DNA of 33,657 nucleotides from positions 1-33,657 of IMG/VR virus record IMGVR_UViG_3300043464_000774; one strand, 5' to 3'. Position numbers and translations under genes: made by a program. The notes under the pieces are model-generated. The model worked only from the letters and a program-made list of their open reading frames with translations. It made no database searches and was not told the origin of the DNA. The stretch's first letter is position 1. Every line of letters begins with the position of its first letter. Origin of the DNA: a virus. Positions 711 to 28,290 of the stretch are shown here, one piece after another.

Positions 711-3413
711 TTATCGAAACACGGCGATGTTGACGGAGGAAAAGTCAAACAAGCCCGCGCTGGATACGGACGCGCCTGACGCAGAGATGAAGTTGGTAGA
801 GATGTTTGCGTGGTTTGTCGCCACAGTGCCTAATCTTGCGGCGGCTACGACTGGCTGCCCGTTGTCGTTATGGCCAACGGTGACGACGAGCGAGTAGTTC
901 GTGTCAGGCATGGCGGTTGCGAAGTTGATCGTGTAGTTACCCACGCCGTTGTCCGCGATGCTAGACACGTTCCCGCTGGCTCGGATCGTGTTGCGAACAA
1001 TCGTCACGTTCCCGCTGGTCGTCGCGGTAGCGCGGGTGACAGTGAACGAGTTTGCGTTCGGCACGGTAGCCACCGTGAAGGCGGCGTCCGTGGCGGTGCC
1101 TGTCGTAAAGTCAAGAAACACGGCCTGCCCGACCGCGAGGCCATGAGCCGTCGCCGTGACGGTGACAGTCGTTCCGGTCTGTGAATATGTGCCGCTCAGA
1201 TTGCTCGCTGCCGTGCCGTCGAAGTTGACCCACGCGCGGCAGGCAAAGTCGGGCAGGAGCGTAGAGCCGCCGGGGATGACGGACCGAGTTGCGCCGTCCG
1301 CGCCGACACGCAATCGCTCCACGCCGCCGGTCACGATGCTGAGGCTGTCGGCTCCACCTGTCTGGGCAAGGCCCGTGTTCGTGTCGCCCGAGATCGTCAC
1401 GCTAGGGGCCGTAGCCGTCCCGGCCGGGATTGTCACGACGCCTGTCGCCCGGAGCGTCGTAAACGCCCCGGTCGATGCCGTAGATGCACCGATGGTAGTG
1501 CCGTTGATACTGCCGCCCGTGATCGCGACGGAGTTGGCGGCCTGCGTGGCAATGGTGCCGAGGCCGGTGATGTCCGTGGTCGCGTGGGTGTGGATGGAAG
1601 CGGCCTTGCCCGCGAGCGCGGACTCCAGCCCCGACACGGCCGTCGCGGGAATGGTCGCGGCAGGAACGATCACGCCCGACGAGTTTGTCACGACCAACGG
1701 GCTATGGACAGGAGGAGCGACGAACGGGAATGGGGCCGTGGGTGGGGTGAAGTTGCTCGCGTAGCGGACTGCCTTCGTGATCCTCAAATCGTCGATGTAT
1801 CCGCGATAGAAACCGTCGCCGCCAACGCCGATAAAAACGGTAGTGTCGCTGCCATTGGCCGCATACGGCACGTTTATGTTTGAAAACGAAGCGTCGGCCA
1901 CGCCGTTGATGTAAAGCGTCGTGCTGCCGGTCGAAGTGATAACGAGTGCAACGTGCGACCACTGATCGGTAACTAGCGCGGTCGCGCTGGCGGCAGTCGG
2001 GATGCTGATCGCCCAGAAGCTGCCGTCGTAGGCAAGCAGTTGCAGCGTCTTATCGTTGCGAATCGAAAACTCATAGCCGCACAGCACAGCCCCGGTCCGG
2101 AGGGACACGATGGCACCGGCGTTACCATTGCCAGACGAACCGCCGGACTGCGCATTGTCTGGACGCAGCCAGCACTCAATCGTCATCGCAGAACCGACTG
2201 GCGAAAACGCCGACGAAAACGGCAGCGACAGGTAGTCGCCGCTGCCATCGAAGTAGGCACTCTTCCCGCCAAACTGCGACTGCGCCGTCGATTGCGTCGC
2301 GCCGCCATAGGCCGTGATCGTTTTCGGCGTGCCGCTGGTATCGACAAACGTGTTGCCGTTGCCGTCCATGCTCAAGAGCAGCGAGACGTTGGCGAAGTCG
2401 GGGTCGCTACTGCCGCCACCACCGCCCGTCACCGCGCCAGTGAGAACGCCAGCGTTTGTGATGTTGCCGTGGGCATGGCTGGCAGCGGCGAAATCGGTCG
2501 CGGCCGCTGCGGCTGCGGTGCCAAGCGTGGGGCGGCCCGTAAGGTCTGAATAGGCTCCGCTGGTGGCAACGGCGGCGAGGCCGCTTACGTCTTGTGCGCT
2601 ATGCGTATGACCTACGGCACTGGCTCCGATGTCGCTGGCCGTGAGAGCGTCCGAGCCGCCCGTGGCGTGGGTGCTCTTGTGGGCCGCCAGGGCGAGCGAG
2701 CCGCTCGAGGTCGTCAGCCCCGTGCCGATGGACAGGGCGACGGTCTTCGTGCCAGCGTCATAGGTGACGGGAGCCGTCGCGGCAGCCACGCCGCTATCGC
2801 CCGTGTCGCCCTTTGGTCCAGTGGCTCCCGTCGCCCCAGCGGCCCCGGTCGCGCCGGTGGCACCGGTTGCCCCCGCTGGTCCTTGCGGGCCGGTGTCGCC
2901 CGTATCGCCCTTTGCACCTTGGGGGCCAGTAGATCCCGTCGAGCCCGCCGGGCCTTGTGGTCCGGTGTCGCCCTGGTCGCCCTTCGGGCCTTGTGGTCCC
3001 GTGGCACCTTGCGGGCCTTGCGGTCCAACGTCGCCAGTGTCTCCCTTCGGCCCTTGCGCGCCGGTAGCCCCGGTCGCTCCAGTGGCCCCCGTCGCGCCGG
3101 TCGGGCCTGCGACTCCTTGCGGTCCCTGTGGGCCGGTCGGTCCTGCCGGGCCTTGGTCGCCTGTGTCGCCCTTCGCTCCCTGCGGGCCGGTGGCACCAGT
3201 TGCACCAGCGGCACCCGTGGCCCCTGTGGCCCCTGCGGGACCCGCCGCACCCTGCGGCCCCTGCGGACCAGCCGGGCCTTGCTCGCCCTGCGGACCCTGC
3301 GGGCCTGTGGCACCGCTCGGGCCAAAGCCACCGCTTACCGTGGCGTCGATCTGCGTCTCGCCGACGCTTGCCGTGATCTGCTGCCCGCCGGATACGTTTG
3401 CGTTGATCGGCAT
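711..3413 (-). CDS. Collagen-like tail fibre with LamG/ConA-type lectin domain
   Basis: A 900-residue fibre. A short N-terminal segment (1-30) is followed by 59 uninterrupted Gly-X-Y triplets (residues 31-207, rich in GPQ, GAT and GDT), which in phage fibres form a trimeric stalk. Residues about 210-335 carry fibre-type repeats with [13 protein letters not shown] and SHAHG. Residues about 336-557 form a LamG/concanavalin-like domain ([30 protein letters not shown]), probably the receptor-binding lectin. Residues about 600-900 hold a [13 protein letters not shown] element typical of phage spike linkers and a beta-rich C-terminus. The start at 3413 overlaps the upstream stop (TGATG). Strand and domain order are clear; the ligand is unknown. 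Confidence 0.9.
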
Positions 3414-3730
3414 CAAAGTACCTCGACGAATCCGGTGAGCGCCGTCCGCGTGGCGTTGTTCTCCGTCCAACGCATCTGCCATCCGTAGGTGCCGCGAGCC
3501 AGGGCGGCGGTCTGCGTGTCGGTCAGGCTCACGTTCACCTGCCCGGCCGTGGCCGAGACGAACGACACGGTGAGCGGCTGCACCTCGGCACCGCTGACGA
3601 GCGACGTGATGCCAGCGGTGACGGTGTAGCCGGTCATCGTGATCGGGCTGAAGTCGATGAGTGCGCTGAAGTCGTCACCCCTCTTGAACGAGAGGCCCAG
3701 CGTGCCGGGTGTTTGGTCGTAGGAGGGCAT
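3413..3730 (-). CDS. Small beta-sandwich phage structural protein
   Basis: A 105-residue protein immediately upstream of, and translationally coupled to, the collagen-like fibre. The pattern is [22 protein letters not shown], a G-x-V-x-V-S-L-T-D-x-Q-T stretch and a final [10 protein letters not shown]...GFVEVL. It resembles the beta-sandwich domains found in phage baseplate or fibre-attachment proteins (BppU N-terminal-like). It may link the fibre to the tail tip. Assignment rests on pattern and position only. Confidence 0.6.
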
Positions 3731-9456: not shown

Positions 9457-9693
9457 TCAAGCGTCAGGCTCGGCCCGTCGCTGGGCGAAGTGCCGCTCAC
9501 GGCACTCCCGCGCCCGCTCTGCGATCTCGTCGGGCGTCGGGTCCACGATCCGCTTGCGGTACTTGCATACCCGATCCGGTATACCGTGCTCGCGGCGAAG
9601 TTCGTGCAGCCGTTGCCGCCGGATGCCGAGGTGCGCTGCGATCACGTCAGCAGGCACCCCGGCATCCCAAAGTTCGCGAAGGGTGTCGAGCAT
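9457..9693 (-). CDS. Small helix-turn-helix protein with PTPxEI tail
   Basis: A 78-residue protein. Residues 2-36 form a helix-turn-helix (LRELWDAGVPADVIAAHLGI, then RRQRLHELRREHGIP). The C-terminus is VDPTPDEIAERARECRERHF, which resembles the tail of the 6821-7165 protein. The ATG at 9693 overlaps the stop of the sliding-clamp gene (TGATG), so translation is probably coupled to the clamp. A regulatory or DNA-binding role is likely; the target is unknown. Confidence 0.65.
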   Translation of the reverse strand: MLDTLRELWDAGVPADVIAAHLGIRRQRLHELRREHGIPDRVCKYRKRIVDPTPDEIAERARECRERHFAQRRAEPDA

Positions 9694-10808
9694 CAGTCCT
9701 TCGCCAACGGCATGACAACGCCGGTGCAGTCGCCGCACCGGAAGACCACGGCACTCTGGGCGTCCACCGCCTCGACCTCGACGGGCTCGGCCTCGTCCAC
9801 GCCCCGCAGGAACTCGACCACGAAGCCGGGGTCGAGCGCCACGCTCGCCGTCTGGCCCGCTTCCAGCAGACCGCACGTCACGCTCGACTGCCCCGCCTCG
9901 GCGCTCTGAGCGGTCAGGTGGATGCCGTTCTCGACGAACGCGAACGTCACACCCTTCGACTGCTCACTCGTCACGATGGCCGCCTGCCGCGTCGCCGCCA
10001 GCAGCTCGGCCCCGTTCACGAGCGTGGCCTTCGCGTCCCGCTCGGGGATCACGTCACGCCACCTGGGGAAGCGTCCCTCGACGAGCCGGGCCGTCACCAC
10101 CGTGCCGTCGATGGTCGCCACCACCTCGCGGTCGGTGGCCTCCAACTGCACCGCCCCCTCGCTGTGCGAGGCGATGCTGCTGATGGTCAGGATCGCCCGC
10201 GCCGGGATCAGCGTCGTGGAGTCGTCCACGGCCTGGTCCACCTCGATCCCGTAGGACGAGAGCCGCCGCCCGTCCGTGCCCACCAGCGTCACCGTGCCAT
10301 CCTTCACCTCGACGAGCACCGCCCCGAGGGCGAACCGGCTCGAATCGGTGTCCGTGGCGTAGGCCACCGCCTTCACGGCCCGCACGAACTGGTCGGCCGG
10401 GATGCGGCAGATCGGCTTCACGGTGGGAGTTTCCCACCGGGGGAACTCCGCCGCATCCTCCGTGGGCAGCGTCCAAGTGCCGCCGCCCACGCTCACGATG
10501 CAAGACGTGTCGCCTGGGGCCAGCGTCACCTCGTCGCCCGAGGCGGCCCCGAGGATCGCCTGCAAGCGGGCGAACGGGAGCAACAGCGGAGCGTCGGTGT
10601 ACGGCACCTCGGCCGACACCTGGAGTTCCAGATCACTCGCCGTGATCCCGCCGTTGGCCAGCAAAACGTTCAACAGGATCGGCTTCGGGCTTCGGCTTGG
10701 AACAGCGGCCCGAACCGCAGCCAGGGCGGCACGGAGCGTTGCTATGGGGAGGGAGATGCCACTGGCGCGAGACTGAGCCTTCCGTGGCTTCGTTGCTGTT
10801 GCGGTCAT
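9693..10808 (-). CDS. dnaN: DNA polymerase III beta sliding clamp (phage-encoded)
   Basis: A 371-residue clamp-family protein. After an 18-residue basic extension come the three-domain features: LPIATLRAALAAV, PKPILLNVLL, ASDLELQVSAEVPY, AVAYATDTDSSRFALGAVLV (domain 2), TLVGTDGRRLS, EGRFPRWRDVIP and the C-terminal CGDCTGVVMPLAKD. Clamps tether DNA polymerase and partners that carry QxxLF-type peptides. It is unusual for a phage of this size with no recognised polymerase in the window. The start ATG has AAGGA 6 nt upstream. A membrane-protein frame overlaps its first 59 codons. Confidence 0.85.
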   Translation of the reverse strand: MTATATKPRKAQSRASGISLPIATLRAALAAVRAAVPSRSPKPILLNVLLANGGITASDLELQVSAEVPYTDAPLLLPFARLQAILGAASGDEVTLAPGDTSCIVSVGGGTWTLPTEDAAEFPRWETPTVKPICRIPADQFVRAVKAVAYATDTDSSRFALGAVLVEVKDGTVTLVGTDGRRLSSYGIEVDQAVDDSTTLIPARAILTISSIASHSEGAVQLEATDREVVATIDGTVVTARLVEGRFPRWRDVIPERDAKATLVNGAELLAATRQAAIVTSEQSKGVTFAFVENGIHLTAQSAEAGQSSVTCGLLEAGQTASVALDPGFVVEFLRGVDEAEPVEVEAVDAQSAVVFRCGDCTGVVMPLAKD

Positions 10809-15902: not shown

Positions 15903-15988
15903 TAGGCTTCCCTGCGTCACGGATTCAAGTGGAGGATAGGGGAACGAAACTGATGTACACTAGTGGTCGTTACCCGCAGGAGGAGCCA

Positions 15989-16879
15989 ATGATGTTACTT
16001 CGAGATGTTCTTGAGAACGAGTACGGTCCTTTGCGGTCGCTGAAACCACAGGCGCGCCGCCAATACCAGCTCACGCTCACCAGATGGAGCGAGACGCTGG
16101 GCCGCGAGCCGACGATGGACGACCTCCAGCCGCTCGTCGTCCAGGCGTTCCTCTCGGCCCGCCGCACCAAGGTGTCCGCCGCCTCGGTTCGGAAGGATCG
16201 CACCCACGTCTGCTGCCTCTGGTCCTACTGTGCCAAGGTTCGCCGCACCCGGTCTGACGGCCAACTGCTGGAGTTTCCCACCGTCGCCCCGGTGCGAGCC
16301 CCTACGAGGCTTCCACGGGCCTACCGGGTGGCTGATGTCTCGGCCTTGGTCCGCACGGCCCTCGGCTACCCATCGCCCGTCTGCGGGCTTCCTGGGGGCT
16401 TGTACTACGCCAGCATGATCCGCATGTGCTGGGAGACGGCATCCCGCATCGGGGCCGTGAGGCAGCTGCGGTGGGGCGAAGTGGACCTCGAAGGGCGGGC
16501 GGTCATCTTCCTGGCCGAAACCACGAAGACCGGCGACCGGGATCTGCGGCGGGCGATCTCGCCCGAGTTGGCCGGGTGGCTGAAGCAGATCGAGCGGAAG
16601 CCGAATGACCTCGTTTTTCCTTGGGATCGCGACCCGACGAGCCTGTGGTACGAGTTCAAGAAGATCTGCCGGGTGGCGGGGGTGCAGCCGAGGGGATTCC
16701 ACGCGCTCCGCAAGAGTAACGCCAGTTATGTGACGGCCGCCGCCGGGGTCGGGGAAGCCGCCAGCGTCTGCGGTCACAAGGATTCCAAAGTCACCATCGA
16801 TCACTACATCGACGAGACGATCGCGAAGCCGAAGCACACGGCACTCGACTTCCTGCCGCCGCTCGACCTAAGCGAATGA
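15989..16879 (+). CDS. int: Tyrosine-type site-specific integrase
   Basis: A 296-residue recombinase, the only + strand gene. A SAM-like core-binding domain spans about 1-95 (RRQYQLTLTRWSETLGREPT). The catalytic domain has the complete residue set: Arg153 in ETASRIGAVRQL, Lys180 in ETTKTGDRDL, His238 and Arg241 in GFHALRKSNASY, His263 in CGHKDSKV and the nucleophile Tyr273 in IDHYID. It would integrate phage DNA at an attachment site. The ATG at 15989 is chosen for AGGAGG 5 nt upstream; the frame is open back to a GTG at 15929. Length is somewhat short for the family, but all catalytic parts are present. Confidence 0.92.
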   Translation: MMLLRDVLENEYGPLRSLKPQARRQYQLTLTRWSETLGREPTMDDLQPLVVQAFLSARRTKVSAASVRKDRTHVCCLWSYCAKVRRTRSDGQLLEFPTVAPVRAPTRLPRAYRVADVSALVRTALGYPSPVCGLPGGLYYASMIRMCWETASRIGAVRQLRWGEVDLEGRAVIFLAETTKTGDRDLRRAISPELAGWLKQIERKPNDLVFPWDRDPTSLWYEFKKICRVAGVQPRGFHALRKSNASYVTAAAGVGEAASVCGHKDSKVTIDHYIDETIAKPKHTALDFLPPLDLSE

Positions 16880-22210: not shown

Positions 22211-22543
22211 CTAGCACTGGGCCGCGATGAGATACCAAGCGGTGCCATCCTTGGCGACGGCGCAGTTTTTTGCACCAGACGGTGCAGTGATCTCGGCGAA
22301 CAGATTCACCGCCGACAGCGTCGCCGTCGAGCCGCGCAACGTCACCGTCTTGGTGCCATTGATCGACCACGCGCCGGTGAAGGTGGCGATGCGGAAGGTC
22401 TTGCGGCTCGCACTCGGCGGCATCGCCTCGAACGACAGAGGCCGCCCGCGTGTCGGCGTCAGTTCCGTTGCGCGCACCACGTTCGCGATGCGCTCGGCGG
22501 ATTCGCGCGTAAACTGAACGGCGTCGCGGCCGGAAGGCGTCAT
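22211..22543 (-). CDS. Hypothetical tail-associated protein
   Basis: A 110-residue protein between two tail-tip genes. The N-terminal half is basic and helical (FTRESAERIANVVRATELTP). The C-terminal half is beta-rich (GAWSINGTKTVTLRGSTATL, AVAKDGTAWYLIAAQC). It overlaps the upstream gene by 4 bp and lies 10 nt before the fibre gene. It is probably a minor virion protein; no family is recognised. Confidence 0.55.
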   Translation of the reverse strand: MTPSGRDAVQFTRESAERIANVVRATELTPTRGRPLSFEAMPPSASRKTFRIATFTGAWSINGTKTVTLRGSTATLSAVNLFAEITAPSGAKNCAVAKDGTAWYLIAAQC

Positions 22544-23454: not shown

Positions 23455-26400
23455 TCACCCCATTCTCGCCGCGCCGACAATCGCCACCGGCTGGTTGAAG
23501 TAGTTCGATGCGGCACCCGTGATGCCCGATGCGATGGCGTTGAGCAGCCGCGTCTGGAGGCGGGCCTCGATGAGCGCGGGGTCTTGGGCCTGTGCGGCCA
23601 CGTCCTGCACCAACGCCTGCCCCTCGGCGGTGCGAATGTCAGCGACGTTTACGCTGGCGTTCGTCGGCCGCGTCAGCGCCTCCATCCGGCGGGCCTGCTC
23701 CTCCGCGACGCGGGCACTCTGGGCCAGGGCGGCGTTCGCCCCGGCGTAGGCGTTTTGGAAGCCTTGCAGGAAGGCGTCGTTCTGGCGGGCGACGAGCGAT
23801 TGGAACTGCTGGGCGGCGCTGCTGCCCTGCTGCAACTGCTGGGCTTGCTGGCGGTTGGCCTGAACGCGGCCGTCCACGATGCCCTGTTCGAGGCGGCGGG
23901 CTTGCTCTAGCTGCCTGACCCGCTCCACCCCGGCGCGAGCGTCCTTCAGTCGCCCCTTGTCGCGGGCCTCCTCAATCGCCTTCTGCTCGGTCTGAATCTT
24001 CGCCTCAAGGGCTTGGATATTGACCGCCGCCTGTTTCTTCCGTTCCTCAAGTTGCTTGACGGCTTCCAGTTCTGCCCGCTGCCGCTCGTCGATCTTCGAC
24101 GCGAGGAAGTCTTCGACCCGCTGGGCGGCGGCGAGTCGCTGATTAAACAACTCCTGCTGCTGGTTCACCTCGCGCTGGTACGTCTCGGCGGTCAGAATGC
24201 CCGCGCTGGCCTGCTGCTGGGCTCGGGCGACGCCTTGCTCAAGAGCCTGCGCCGCGAGTGCCCCGACGTTGCCGAACTGCGTGGCCTTTTCAATAAGGCC
24301 GTCGATGGTCTTGTCTGTGGCTTCAAACGCCCTGGCGAACCCGTCGCCGAAGCCCTGCTCAAGAGCCTGCTCTTGCTCTTCGAGCTTGGCCTGGATCTGG
24401 TCGAGTTGGGCCAGCCGGGCCGTCGCGGCGTCGGCGGCCATGACGGCACCGCGCTCGCGGGCATCGGCGATCTCTTCGACGAGTTGCTTCTGCTGCCGCA
24501 GGACAAACTCCAGATCGGTCTCGACCTGCTTCGTCTCCCGCTGCGCGGCCACCAGTTGGGCAAGTCGCTGCTCGTCGGCGGCGGCGATGTTCCGCTGCAA
24601 CTGCTCGATCTTGGTGAACGCATCGACTTGCTTCTGGTACTCGGCGGCGGCCGCTGCGGCGTTTTGCTTGAGCGTGGCTTCGTTGATGATCCGCTTGCCG
24701 AACTGCTGTTCAAGTTCGCCGATCGCGTTCTGGTACTTCAGGGCCGCGTCGAATCCGGCCTGGCCGAACCGGGCCGAGTCTTCGATGGCAATGGCGAGTT
24801 GAGCCCGCACGGCCTCGACGGCCTTGGCGGCGGCGGCGTTCTCCTGCTCGGTCGCCTTGCGAGACTCCTCGGCGGCCTTCGTGCGAATGTCGGCCTCCTC
24901 GCGAAGCGCCTCGATCCGCTTGCCGAAGTCGGTCAGCGCGTTGTTCTGTGCCGCCGTCAACTGCTCCTGCGACAGGCCAGCGTCCTCGGCGGCAGCCGCC
25001 ACGTCCTCAAGCGACTTCACGAGAGCCTGCACGGCCTTGGAGCCGTCATTGCCAAACGCAGCCGCCTGCTCCTGGGCCTTGGCGATCTCGCCGGAAAGAT
25101 TGATGGCTCCGTCGAGCGATTGGTCGAGCTTGCCGATGAACTCCGCAAGGGCTTCATTCGAGGCCAGCCGCTGCGATTCCTGGATGGCATCGTTGCGTTG
25201 CTTGAGTAGTTCGGCGTCGGCCTGGAGCCTCGCCTGCGTCTTCTGGAAGCCGAGGAAGGTCCGGTCGCTCGCCGTATCGTCGAGCGCTCTGATGAGCCGG
25301 TTGATGCCGCCAATCGACTCGGCCGTGGAGTTGGCAATGGCTGTGCCGATCCCGGCGAAGTTGGCCGTGATCTGACGGTAGAGCCCCTGCGATGCGACAC
25401 CCACGCGGTCCATCGCGTCGCCGAAGGAGTCGATGTCGGCCCGCTGCTGTTCCGTGAGGGCACCGCCGAGCCGTTCCAGATCGCTTGCGGCCGTCCCGAG
25501 TTGCTTGATGACCGGCAGAAGTTCGGCCCCGCTCTTCCCGAAGAGCGCCATGGCCGTGGCTGTCCGCTGGGCCGGGTCTGGCATCTGCGCCAACGCCTGC
25601 GCCGCCTGCTGGAAGAGCGTCTCCGGGTTGCCGTCGCGAACGGCGTCGGTACTGATCCGCAGGTTCTTGAACGCCTCAACGGCCGACTTCGTGCCGTCGC
25701 GGGCCTCGTTCACCGCACGCAGGAACCTTGTGAACCCGCCGCCCAACTGCTCGACGCTGGTGCCGGTTTGCAGGGCCGCCGCTTCAAGCACTTGGATGAA
25801 CGAGAAGGAAACGCCGACGCGATCCGCCAACTGCCCCAGCCGCTCGACCTCGCCTTCGAGTTGCACGAGGTTCCGGCCAGCCGCCACGGCCCCAGCACCA
25901 AGCGCCGCGAACGCAGCCGCCCCGGCGGTGAACGGATTGACGAGCCCTGCCACGCTCGCCCCGATGCTGGCGAGACCGTTCTGGAGGCCGCCCGAGAACA
26001 CCCGAGCGAGCCCTTCGCCAGCCGACGCGAGGCCCGAGAGCCGACCGGCCACATTGCCAATCGGGCCGGGCAGGGCCGACAGGATGCCGGTCAGTTCGTT
26101 GAACTTCAGCACCCCCTGCTTGCCAGCATCTTCGATCGCCTTGCCTGACCTGTTGGCGGCAATCGTGGCCTCGGCGAACAGGTCGGCCTGGCGTTGCAGT
26201 TCGCGGTTGAACTCCTGCTTTGTGAGCAGGTTGGCCTCTTCCAAGACTCTGGCGCGGCCGACCTCTTGATCGAATCGCTCCTGGGCCGTCAGGTTCCGCT
26301 GGCGAATCGCATCCGCCTCGGCTTCCAGCAATGCCCGCTGGCGGTTCGCTTGGGCGGCCGCCTGCTCCTCAGTCCTGCGGGCTTCCGCAAACGCCTCGGA

Positions 26401-26907
26401 CTGCTTGCGTTCGGCGGCTGCAACAGCGTCGGCTCTGGCCCGCGCTGAGTCTGCCGTCTGCTTGTCGAGGCCAAGCCTTGCGATGGCGGCGTTATTCAGC
26501 GCCGTCTGGTCAATCGCCCCGAGCCGCTCAAGTTCCACGAGCCGCTCGATCTCGTCGGCCACCACCTTCGTCTGGTCGCCGTACTGCTTCTGGATGCGAA
26601 CGCCTTCCGCAAACGCCTCGGCCGACCTCTTGGCTTCTTCAGTCAGCTGGGCAAACGCCGCCGCGTATTCCTGCGGCTTGATTGTGTCCGCCTGCAACTG
26701 ATCCGCCAGCCTGGCGAACCGCTCGGCAAACTGCTCCTGGGCGCGAGCCGCTGCGGCAGAGCTTTCCGTGAACGGGGCGAATACCTTCGTGGCCCGGTCC
26801 ACCTGCGCCTGCAAACTGTTCAGCGCACGCTCGGCCTGCGTGAGCGACTTCGGGACGCTTGAAGCGTCCGCCGTCACCTTCATCGCAAGTCCGAGGATCG
26901 TCGCCAT
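23455..26907 (-). CDS. Tail tape measure protein
   Basis: A 1150-residue, almost entirely helical protein with long coiled-coil stretches rich in Ala, Gln, Glu and Arg. A hydrophobic segment lies at about 308-347 (SIGASVAGLVNPFTAGAAAF, then AALGAGAVAAG). The N-terminus MATILGLAMKVTADASSVPK is typical of tape measures. At about 0.15 nm per residue (the known rule) it predicts a tail of about 170 nm. Position directly after the G/GT chaperone pair confirms the call. The ATG follows the GT stop by 2 nt. Confidence 0.93.
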   Translation of the reverse strand: MATILGLAMKVTADASSVPKSLTQAERALNSLQAQVDRATKVFAPFTESSAAAARAQEQFAERFARLADQLQADTIKPQEYAAAFAQLTEEAKRSAEAFAEGVRIQKQYGDQTKVVADEIERLVELERLGAIDQTALNNAAIARLGLDKQTADSARARADAVAAAERKQSEAFAEARRTEEQAAAQANRQRALLEAEADAIRQRNLTAQERFDQEVGRARVLEEANLLTKQEFNRELQRQADLFAEATIAANRSGKAIEDAGKQGVLKFNELTGILSALPGPIGNVAGRLSGLASAGEGLARVFSGGLQNGLASIGASVAGLVNPFTAGAAAFAALGAGAVAAGRNLVQLEGEVERLGQLADRVGVSFSFIQVLEAAALQTGTSVEQLGGGFTRFLRAVNEARDGTKSAVEAFKNLRISTDAVRDGNPETLFQQAAQALAQMPDPAQRTATAMALFGKSGAELLPVIKQLGTAASDLERLGGALTEQQRADIDSFGDAMDRVGVASQGLYRQITANFAGIGTAIANSTAESIGGINRLIRALDDTASDRTFLGFQKTQARLQADAELLKQRNDAIQESQRLASNEALAEFIGKLDQSLDGAINLSGEIAKAQEQAAAFGNDGSKAVQALVKSLEDVAAAAEDAGLSQEQLTAAQNNALTDFGKRIEALREEADIRTKAAEESRKATEQENAAAAKAVEAVRAQLAIAIEDSARFGQAGFDAALKYQNAIGELEQQFGKRIINEATLKQNAAAAAAEYQKQVDAFTKIEQLQRNIAAADEQRLAQLVAAQRETKQVETDLEFVLRQQKQLVEEIADARERGAVMAADAATARLAQLDQIQAKLEEQEQALEQGFGDGFARAFEATDKTIDGLIEKATQFGNVGALAAQALEQGVARAQQQASAGILTAETYQREVNQQQELFNQRLAAAQRVEDFLASKIDERQRAELEAVKQLEERKKQAAVNIQALEAKIQTEQKAIEEARDKGRLKDARAGVERVRQLEQARRLEQGIVDGRVQANRQQAQQLQQGSSAAQQFQSLVARQNDAFLQGFQNAYAGANAALAQSARVAEEQARRMEALTRPTNASVNVADIRTAEGQALVQDVAAQAQDPALIEARLQTRLLNAIASGITGAASNYFNQPVAIVGAARMG

Positions 26908-26909
26908 TG

Positions 26910-27559
26910 CTATTGCCCAAGGGTTCCTAACAGTTTTTGCAGTTCCGCCTTCATCTGGTCCGTGTGCTGCGGCGGCTTCTCAATCGGAATGAAATCGCTG
27001 GCCTGCGGTGCCTTCCCCTTCTGGGCGTAGGGGGCAAGGATCGCACTGGCGAGCAACCCCGTTTCCGCCCATGAGTCAGGGATAGCCTCAAAATACCTCG
27101 TGTAAGCAATCCACTCCGTGAGTTCTCGGCTGTCCATCCGCATGGACAACTCGCCGACCGTCATGCCTAAGTGACCCGCCAGCCGAAACAGCAGCCGTCG
27201 CAGCGGGCGGGCGTTTAGTTTTTTGCCAACTCCTCCACGTCCGCTTCGCTCATCGCGTTGTGCTTCATGGCTCGATCAAACAGCCGCGTCATCACGGCCG
27301 CCGACTTCTGCCCGAGCTTCTCGATCTGCTCCCGCGTGAAGAGAAGGTTGCCCTTCTCGTCGCAGAGCACCCGCTGGAGATACTCCGTGCGGAAGTTTTC
27401 GATGCCCGTTTCCTTCTTGCCGATCCACATGCGCTCGTAGGCGTCGCGTTCCGAGACGCTCATCACGCGAACGAAAACGCTGCCGCCCCACTCCTTGACC
27501 TTCACTTCGAGGAGCGATGCGTCGTTTGCTGCCAGGATCTGGTCTGCCGTCAGTGCCAT
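26910..27559 (-). CDS. Tail assembly chaperone GT fusion via -1 frameshift
   Basis: A fused product of 216 residues, formed when ribosomes slip -1 at A_AAA_AAC (27224-27218) just before the G stop. The T part (102 residues) reads through without a stop: RPLRRLLFRLAGHLGMTVGE, then SMRMDSRELTEWIAYTRYFE. This matches the tail-assembly T/DUF4035 pattern. In lambda, G and GT chaperone the tape measure. The frame offset is exactly -1 and the T frame is open from the slip site, so an internal start at 27164 is less likely to be the main product. Confidence 0.8.
27174..27212 (-). promoter_or_regulatory. Possible frameshift-stimulating hairpin
   Basis: Arms GCCCGCC (27212-27206) and GGCGGGT (27180-27174) can pair over 7 bp, including one terminal G-U, with a 25-nt loop. 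The spacer to the slippery heptamer is 5 nt, a usual distance for -1 stimulators. Pseudoknot potential was not tested. Confidence 0.45.
27215..27559 (-). CDS. Tail assembly chaperone G
   Basis: A 114-residue protein translated without frameshifting. The sequence VKVKEWGGSVFVRVMSVSER, YERMWIGKKETGIENFR, DEKGNLLFTREQIEKLGQ and DRAMKHNAMSEADVEELAKN is the usual pattern of phage tail assembly chaperones. It lies between the tail-tube and tape-measure genes. It ends two nucleotides of context after the slippery site, in AAA AAC TAA. It would act only during tail assembly and not be in the virion. Confidence 0.85.
   Translation of the reverse strand: MALTADQILAANDASLLEVKVKEWGGSVFVRVMSVSERDAYERMWIGKKETGIENFRTEYLQRVLCDEKGNLLFTREQIEKLGQKSAAVMTRLFDRAMKHNAMSEADVEELAKN
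27218..27224 (-). promoter_or_regulatory. -1 ribosomal frameshift site A AAA AAC
   Basis: The minus-strand heptamer AAAAAAC is in the correct register (gcA AAA AAC TAA) to permit tandem slippage of P- and A-site tRNAs. It sits directly before the G stop, and the -1 frame behind it is open for 102 codons. Confidence 0.8.
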
Positions 27560-27569
27560 GCGTGTGTCC

Positions 27570-27890
27570 TCATTCGGGCGTGATTTTGAACGTCACCGCA
27601 TACCGTGCGATGTCGTTGACTTTGCCCGAGAGTTGCACCCGCTCGCAGACGGCTTTCGTGGAGAAGGTCAGCCCACCACCGGAGATGGCGAGCGTGGCCT
27701 TCTTGCCGTACTGGGCCAGCGAGACGTTGGCAGTGCTCAGGCACGAGATATCTATAGTGCCAACGTCAAATGCCCAGGTGCTCGCCCGCGCGAGCGGCAG
27801 ACTGCCGCCCGCGTTGACCTTGATCTCCACGACCTCGCCGAAGTCCGTGGAGTTCCACGAAGCCGTGACGCCCGTGCATACGTTTGCCAT
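27570..27890 (-). CDS. Tail tube protein, second copy (short)
   Basis: A 106-residue beta-rich protein. The patterns VGTIDISCLST and NDIARYAVTFKITPE correspond to EDTIDVSHLGL and NDAVRGQVTFRVAR in the adjacent 126-residue protein, so the two look like diverged tandem copies. Tail-tube proteins stack into the tail. The ATG at 27890 has GGAGG 7 nt upstream. It lies right before the G gene. It may be a minor or tail-end tube protein. Confidence 0.65.
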   Translation of the reverse strand: MANVCTGVTASWNSTDFGEVVEIKVNAGGSLPLARASTWAFDVGTIDISCLSTANVSLAQYGKKATLAISGGGLTFSTKAVCERVQLSGKVNDIARYAVTFKITPE

Positions 27891-27909
27891 GACGGGCCTC
27901 CGTCACGGA

Positions 27910-28290
27910 CTAGCGGGCAACCCGGAACGTGACCTGACCACGGACGGCATCATTCGTCGCAAGCGTCAGCGTCGAGGACGACACGGTGGCCGCCTTGCTA
28001 ATCAAGGCACTGCCGCCTACCGTCAGCACCAGCGTGCCGGTGCTGGCATCAGCGATGATGCTCGTGCCGAGGTAGTCCACGACAACCTCTCGGCCCGTGT
28101 CGGTCGCCGAGCCTTGGAGCGGGCGCTGGATGGTGCGGATGGCATTGCCGGTGGTGAGGCCCAGGTGCGACACGTCAATGGTGTCTTCGGCGGACGGATC
28201 CGTGTTGCTGACGACGATGTTGGTGACGGTATAGCCGACACCAGCGAACGAGAACGTGGTGCCCGATCCATCATGCGGCGTTGCGGACAT
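27910..28290 (-). CDS. Major tail tube protein, first copy
   Basis: A 126-residue beta-rich protein (GTTFSFAGVGYTVTNIVVSN, EDTIDVSHLGLTTGNAIRT, GTLVLTVGGSALISKAAT) of the lambda gpV-like tail-tube type. It follows the tail terminator gene, the standard order. The ATG at 28290 has AGGAG 9 nt upstream. It is probably the most abundant tail protein. Confidence 0.75.
   Translation of the reverse strand: MSATPHDGSGTTFSFAGVGYTVTNIVVSNTDPSAEDTIDVSHLGLTTGNAIRTIQRPLQGSATDTGREVVVDYLGTSIIADASTGTLVLTVGGSALISKAATVSSSTLTLATNDAVRGQVTFRVAR

Follow-up and report, generated by a model that had tools for sequence, protein, structure and literature searches.

Where AAAAAAC directly precedes the stop codon of a phage gene and a second reading frame overlaps that gene one base back, the question arises of how the second frame is reached by the ribosome. 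Such a locus is found in a viral record of 33,657 bases (64% G+C), which was analysed as a whole and is called the window here. The first-pass annotation had read the locus as a lambda-like G/GT pair joined by a programmed -1 frameshift, and this reading is supported by the gene order, the -1 frame, the slip site, the family of T, and the predicted fold of G. The tail assembly chaperone pair is very probably made by -1 programmed ribosomal frameshifting, which is probably aided by a stem-loop.

Gene order around G and T

G, the heptamer, the hairpin, and the T frame all lie on the minus strand, which had been left unstated. On this strand a prohead protease gene (PF04586) and a major capsid protein gene (PF05065) are followed, further on, by a tail completion protein gene (PF11367), after which come two short ORFs, G, T, and the tape measure gene (Table 1). 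A chaperone ORF between the major tail region and the tape measure gene, overlapped by a -1 ORF, is the G/GT-type arrangement, and this is what the window holds. The two short ORFs upstream of G (27570-28290, minus strand) are candidates for the major tail protein by their position; neither had a Pfam match at E up to 1.

In contrast to the structural genes, a phage integrase family gene (PF00589) lies on the plus strand (15929-16879), and its presence suggests a temperate phage. The phage also encodes a DNA polymerase III beta subunit, the sliding clamp (PF02767 and PF02768), at 9693-10808 (minus strand). A protein of 923 residues encoded at 711-3482 (minus strand) combines collagen-like repeats (PF01391) with a concanavalin-like domain (PF13385) and is likely a tail fibre. 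The closest cellular relative among 16 cellular loci is a Pirellulales metagenome genome with a T that is 61% identical. The other 15 matches come from Planctomycetales, Phycisphaerales, Chloroflexota, Actinomycetota, Pseudomonadota, and others, and the host probably belongs to the Planctomycetota.

Table 1. Features of the G/T locus in window coordinates.
Feature	Position	Strand	Remarks
G, tail assembly chaperone (114 aa, TAA stop included)	27215..27559	-	phrog_344, 4.7e-25; AlphaFold2 model near 2OB9
Slippery heptamer A_AAA_AAC, in register with G and abutting its stop	27218..27224	-	slip site kept in relatives
Zero-frame TAA stop codon of G	27215..27217	-	
-1 frame T extension after the slip (102 codons plus stop)	26910..27218	-	conserved peptide LN..P.RRF.F.LAGHL.MTV from the slip site
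PF06223 Phage_tail_T match	26925..27134	-	residues 30-99 of P0002, given here in window coordinates
Internal ATG of the T frame, start in an ATG-based gene model	27162..27164	-	ATG here in 100/103 relatives
Stem-loop, 5 nt past the heptamer	27174..27212	-	arms 27212-27206/27180-27174, 27204-27201/27185-27182, 27199-27195/27191-27187
Tape measure protein gene, next downstream of T	23455..26907	-	phrog_8462 tail length tape measure protein, 2.2e-22

Anatomy and protein families

The 3' end of G reads GAG GAG TTG GCA AAA AAC TAA, so that the heptamer sits at 27224-27218 in register directly before the stop, as had been proposed. The -1 frame is open from 27275, and the 102 sense codons that had been counted are present, running from CTA (27218-27216) to the stop at 26912-26910. 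The predicted GT fusion has 216 residues.

G matches the tail assembly chaperone profile phrog_344 over most of its length (residues 2-114 of 114), and had no match to PF06894, the family of lambda G, at E up to 1 in Pfam. The nearest PDB entries to its AlphaFold2 model (mean pLDDT 75.8) are the HK97 tail assembly chaperone 2OB9 (Foldseek E 1.8e-4, TM 0.58/0.61; VIA Z 8.4 over 99 residues, rmsd 4.0) and YqbN (3KLU, Z 8.8). Both Z values are modest, yet they stand well apart from the next unrelated rows. The T part scores 30.6 bits against PF06223, above the curated cut-off of 25.9, and matches the tail protein profile phrog_337 at 9.3e-16 (residues 7-98). The initial label, T/DUF4035-like, is corrected to PF06223; for DUF4035 there was no Pfam match of that name at E up to 1, in a release that may not hold the name. 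A search of the PDB with T gave no chain by fold (best Foldseek E 3.7) and none by profile.

The heptamer by itself is weak evidence, because AAAAAAC occurs five times in the window where 1.58 copies are expected, and another copy is also in frame. This second in-frame A_AAA_AAC lies in an open frame at 22265-22271 (minus strand), and the -1 frame is open for 64 codons beyond it. As a second slip site it was judged to be chance: DNA matches in five of six related records end before it, and four of the five loci are without AAAAAAC on either strand, the fifth (L266) carrying one about 700 nt off. The site between G and T is more than chance because of its conservation in relatives.

Conservation of the slip site

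Protein searches of IMG/VR yielded at least 159 loci, several of whose contigs came up twice; together with the window these give 103 distinct G-T sequences, and the counts that follow are of distinct sequences among the matches listed. T lies in the -1 frame in 103/103, the window included, and an in-frame XXXYYYZ heptamer is found at the end of G in 102/103. Two main types can be differentiated, A_AAA_AAC abutting the stop and G_GGA_AAA three bases ahead of it. Rarer forms are G_GGA_AAC in L132 and an overlapping A_AAA_AAC and G_GGA_AAA in L117 (L117:2995-3054, GGGAAAAAAC); the latter may be an in-between form of the two main types. The remaining sequence, L125, has GGGGGAA abutting the G stop, with an ATG that overlaps this stop (AATGA, L125:2992-3051). 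Although not counted as XXXYYYZ, GGGGGAA is probably the slip site there; in its accessible text, one study reports it as a motif of annotated phage frameshifts (PMC10885494).

The codons of the slip site are nearly fixed there and rare elsewhere in G. AAA occupies codon -2 in 101/103 sequences, whereas it makes up 11.9% of the 812 Lys codons in the rest of G, and GGA is used for 78/78 Gly at codon -3, compared to 7.1% of 812 Gly codons elsewhere. Since the sequences are related, the counts from the 103 are not independent. An upstream Shine-Dalgarno-like stimulator was also considered, as GGAGGAG precedes the slip site in the window, and it is unsupported by Glu codon usage: in 145 distinct G genes, GAG encodes 46/120 Glu at codon -5 and 93/119 at codon -6, compared to 1109/1529 Glu elsewhere.

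A profile search added at least 80 viral and 16 cellular loci, some of them already in the first set. Both genes were found in 92 of these 96 loci (no G match in L179, L184, L217, and L247), which among the matches listed comprise 64 distinct sequences, all with T in -1; 57 of them carry a heptamer at most 3 nt from the stop. The other seven only have in-frame heptamers at least 33 nt upstream of the G stop, where chance is a fair rival. Relative to the first set 54 of the 64 are new, all in -1, and in 47 of these a heptamer lies no more than 3 nt from the stop. As the 57 sites were picked for a heptamer within 3 nt, the total of 122 is no test of presence. An in-frame slippery heptamer in the G/T overlap is conserved in the relatives.

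In a tree of 56 GT proteins, well supported branches require a minimum of two switches between the main types of slip site, and the A_AAA_AAC group of the window belongs to a well supported cluster of 28 sequences, 22 of them with G_GGA_AAA. The columns used for the tree included the slip codons, whose effect, if any, is to hide changes. It is conceivable, and proposed here only tentatively, that the frameshift ratio is what has been conserved, rather than any single sequence.

The downstream hairpin

A stem pairing 27212-27206 with 27180-27174, which begins 5 nt downstream of the heptamer, had been noticed previously. The stem is present; its extent had been underestimated, as it forms the base of a longer hairpin of 39 nt and 16 bp (27212-27174, -25.1 kcal/mol) with a z of -2.81 against dinucleotide shuffles and -3.09 against synonymous codon shuffles. 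The fold might be an idle by-product of high G+C content and of the conserved RRF.F.LAGHL peptide at a frameshift that is itself real, and it was examined in relatives with shuffles that preserve the -1 peptide and its codons (42-nt segments on a 3-nt grid).

In 30 representatives less than 90% alike, segments that start 3 nt after the last G codon have a mean z of -2.47, with 22/30 below -1.64, compared to mean z values of -0.99 to +0.70 for control segments of the same 30 (starts -150 to -3 and +12 to +190). A coarse 21-nt grid that straddled the hairpin had given a mean z of -1.06 at -3 and is superseded by the 3-nt grid. The result was replicated in 29 further representatives less than 90% like the first 30 (mean z -1.93, median -2.50, 18/29 below -1.64), the controls that start 24 to 108 nt on ranging from -0.81 to +0.05 in mean z. 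Within this set the mean z is -2.71 where the slip site lies at most 3 nt from the stop (n = 22), while among the seven sequences with a far slip site the hairpin is there only in L180. The near relatives L100 (z +1.31), L127 (+0.09), and L074 (-0.14) have no hairpin at this place. The hairpin is under selection beyond protein coding.

The individual base pairs are less constant than the position. The spacer between heptamer and stem measures 8 nt for G_GGA_AAA and 5 nt for A_AAA_AAC, and the A_AAA_AAC clade pairs in a register one base away from that of a large part of the G_GGA_AAA clade. No column-wise consensus structure was obtained, RNAalifold on 69 sequences returning no pairs. The covariation score of the pairing in the window (0.226, compared to 0.154) exceeds all 500 shuffles, and is still 0.195 when slid by one base; 10 pairs change on both sides, compared to 9.1 in shuffles (109/500 reach this number), and a structure shifted by +1 pairs equally many cells (64.4% versus 63.6%). 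A search of Rfam gave nothing at gathering score, and a sub-threshold group II intron match (16.5 versus 49 bits) was judged to be chance. Selection thus appears to keep the hairpin where it is, while the pairs that form it may have drifted.

The absent consensus and the registers that vary between clades are what an idle by-product would leave, as are the G+C content of the window and the existence of cultured relatives without a hairpin. Shuffles that hold peptide and codons fixed, however, leave the signal in both sets here and not in the control segments, which makes a mere by-product unlikely. The conserved stem-loop is probably stimulatory. Among the papers listed on tail frameshifts with a stem-loop or hairpin and on planctomycete phages with tail frameshifts, no title or abstract describes such a hairpin.

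Coding upstream of the internal ATG

T could instead be a separate gene whose translation begins at its ATG (27164), either after re-initiation or from a separate site, with no fusion being made. An ATG at this place in 100/103 sequences among the matches listed fits such a gene, and so does the annotation of T as a separate gene in several cultured phages (Mcat32, P1312, AbIPP1, Yara, and REQ1). The codons between slip site and ATG, however, specify a peptide that is conserved in the relatives when it is read in the -1 frame. Over 69 distinct sequences, the three positions of the -1 codons have entropies of 0.81, 0.50, and 1.18 bits, the third positions being the most variable, which argues that the -1 frame is coding from the slip site onward. 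Furthermore, L107, L111, and L113 have AAG in place of the ATG among the matches listed. In the second set the ATG is at the same place in 53/57, one codon earlier in L176, L181, and L182, and absent in L175. The model of T (mean pLDDT 76.0, pTM 0.44) places its first helix at residues 5-18, before the internal ATG at residue 20, and the maintenance of a slip site with otherwise rare codons also speaks against a T made from its own start. A separate T is therefore very improbable.

For annotation, an ATG-based model had been expected to miss about 17 residues of the T domain. It loses 18; the phrog_337 match begins before the ATG, whereas the PF06223 match begins after it. Annotators of such contigs can place the true start of T 18 codons ahead of the ATG.

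Indel errors of sequencing or assembly are typical of runs such as these six A, which could suggest that the two frames are one gene broken by such an error; this is refuted, and has a negligible probability, because 103/103 distinct relatives, drawn from many assemblies and using two main types of slip site, show the same -1 layout, as do cultured phages.

Proposed mechanism

In the frameshifting reading, most ribosomes would terminate at TAA, yielding G (114 aa). A smaller fraction, positioned with AAA in the P site and AAC in the A site, would slip one base back on A_AAA_AAC, aided by the stem-loop 5 nt downstream, and would continue in the -1 frame to produce GT (216 aa). By analogy to lambda, the tape measure protein would be covered by many copies of G and few of GT, the latter recruiting the major tail protein through their T part; according to the accessible text of a review, the G part binds the tape measure and the T part the major tail protein. 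Slippage itself and its rate, like the stimulation by the hairpin and the role in tail assembly, we infer from the anatomy, homology, and conservation of the locus.

Several points weigh against frameshifting: the relatives are not independent, 7/54 of the added sequences have far heptamers only, and the hairpin is missing in some. In addition, the accessible text of the review describes A_AAA_AAC as much less shift-prone than A_AAA_AAG in E. coli, and also names it as the slip site of a haloarchaeal virus.

Comparison with known systems

G/GT is named as a case to bear in mind in the accessible text of the Phage Annotation Guide (PMC8785237). The text accessible for PRFect describes training data with 2397 joined tail chaperone genes and the use of downstream folding energy (PMC10885494), and that of a genome survey gives 7% for a phage tail chaperone cluster (PMC3711429). 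The present locus extends this classic recoding device to phages known here only from environmental contigs, and its more than 100 related slip sites offer a natural series for measuring how heptamer and hairpin jointly set the frameshift rate.

Among cultured phages, homologous G and T occur in the Streptomyces phages Dubu and phiSASD1 and in Rhodococcus phage Jflix2, which are annotated with a joined two-piece gene plus G and thereby back the G/GT reading. Dubu and phiSASD1 carry G_GGA_AAC at the stop, while in Jflix2 G continues for about 33 nt beyond its in-frame GGGTTTC. A hairpin is present in Dubu (z -2.54 at +3) and absent in phiSASD1 and AbIPP1; that of Mcat32 differs and lies directly at the stop of G (z -2.55). 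HK97 2OB9 resembles G in its predicted fold, with about 20% identity and a weak sequence profile match (E 0.35).

Lambda shares the overall layout, with a chaperone G, T in the -1 frame, an in-frame heptamer near the end of G, and the tape measure gene next. Lambda T belongs to the same PF06223 family and reaches phrog_337 at 4.7e-07. The G proteins differ in family, as lambda G matches PF06894 at 206.9 bits and phrog_344 only at E 0.049, the reverse of the G described here. The slip site of lambda is G_GGA_AAG, 15 nt before the stop, instead of an A_AAA_AAC that abuts it, and lambda has no hairpin at its slip site (z +0.19 to +1.06), unlike this phage and many of its relatives. The locus represents a known device in well conserved form, and the conserved downstream stem-loop is its one unusual feature.
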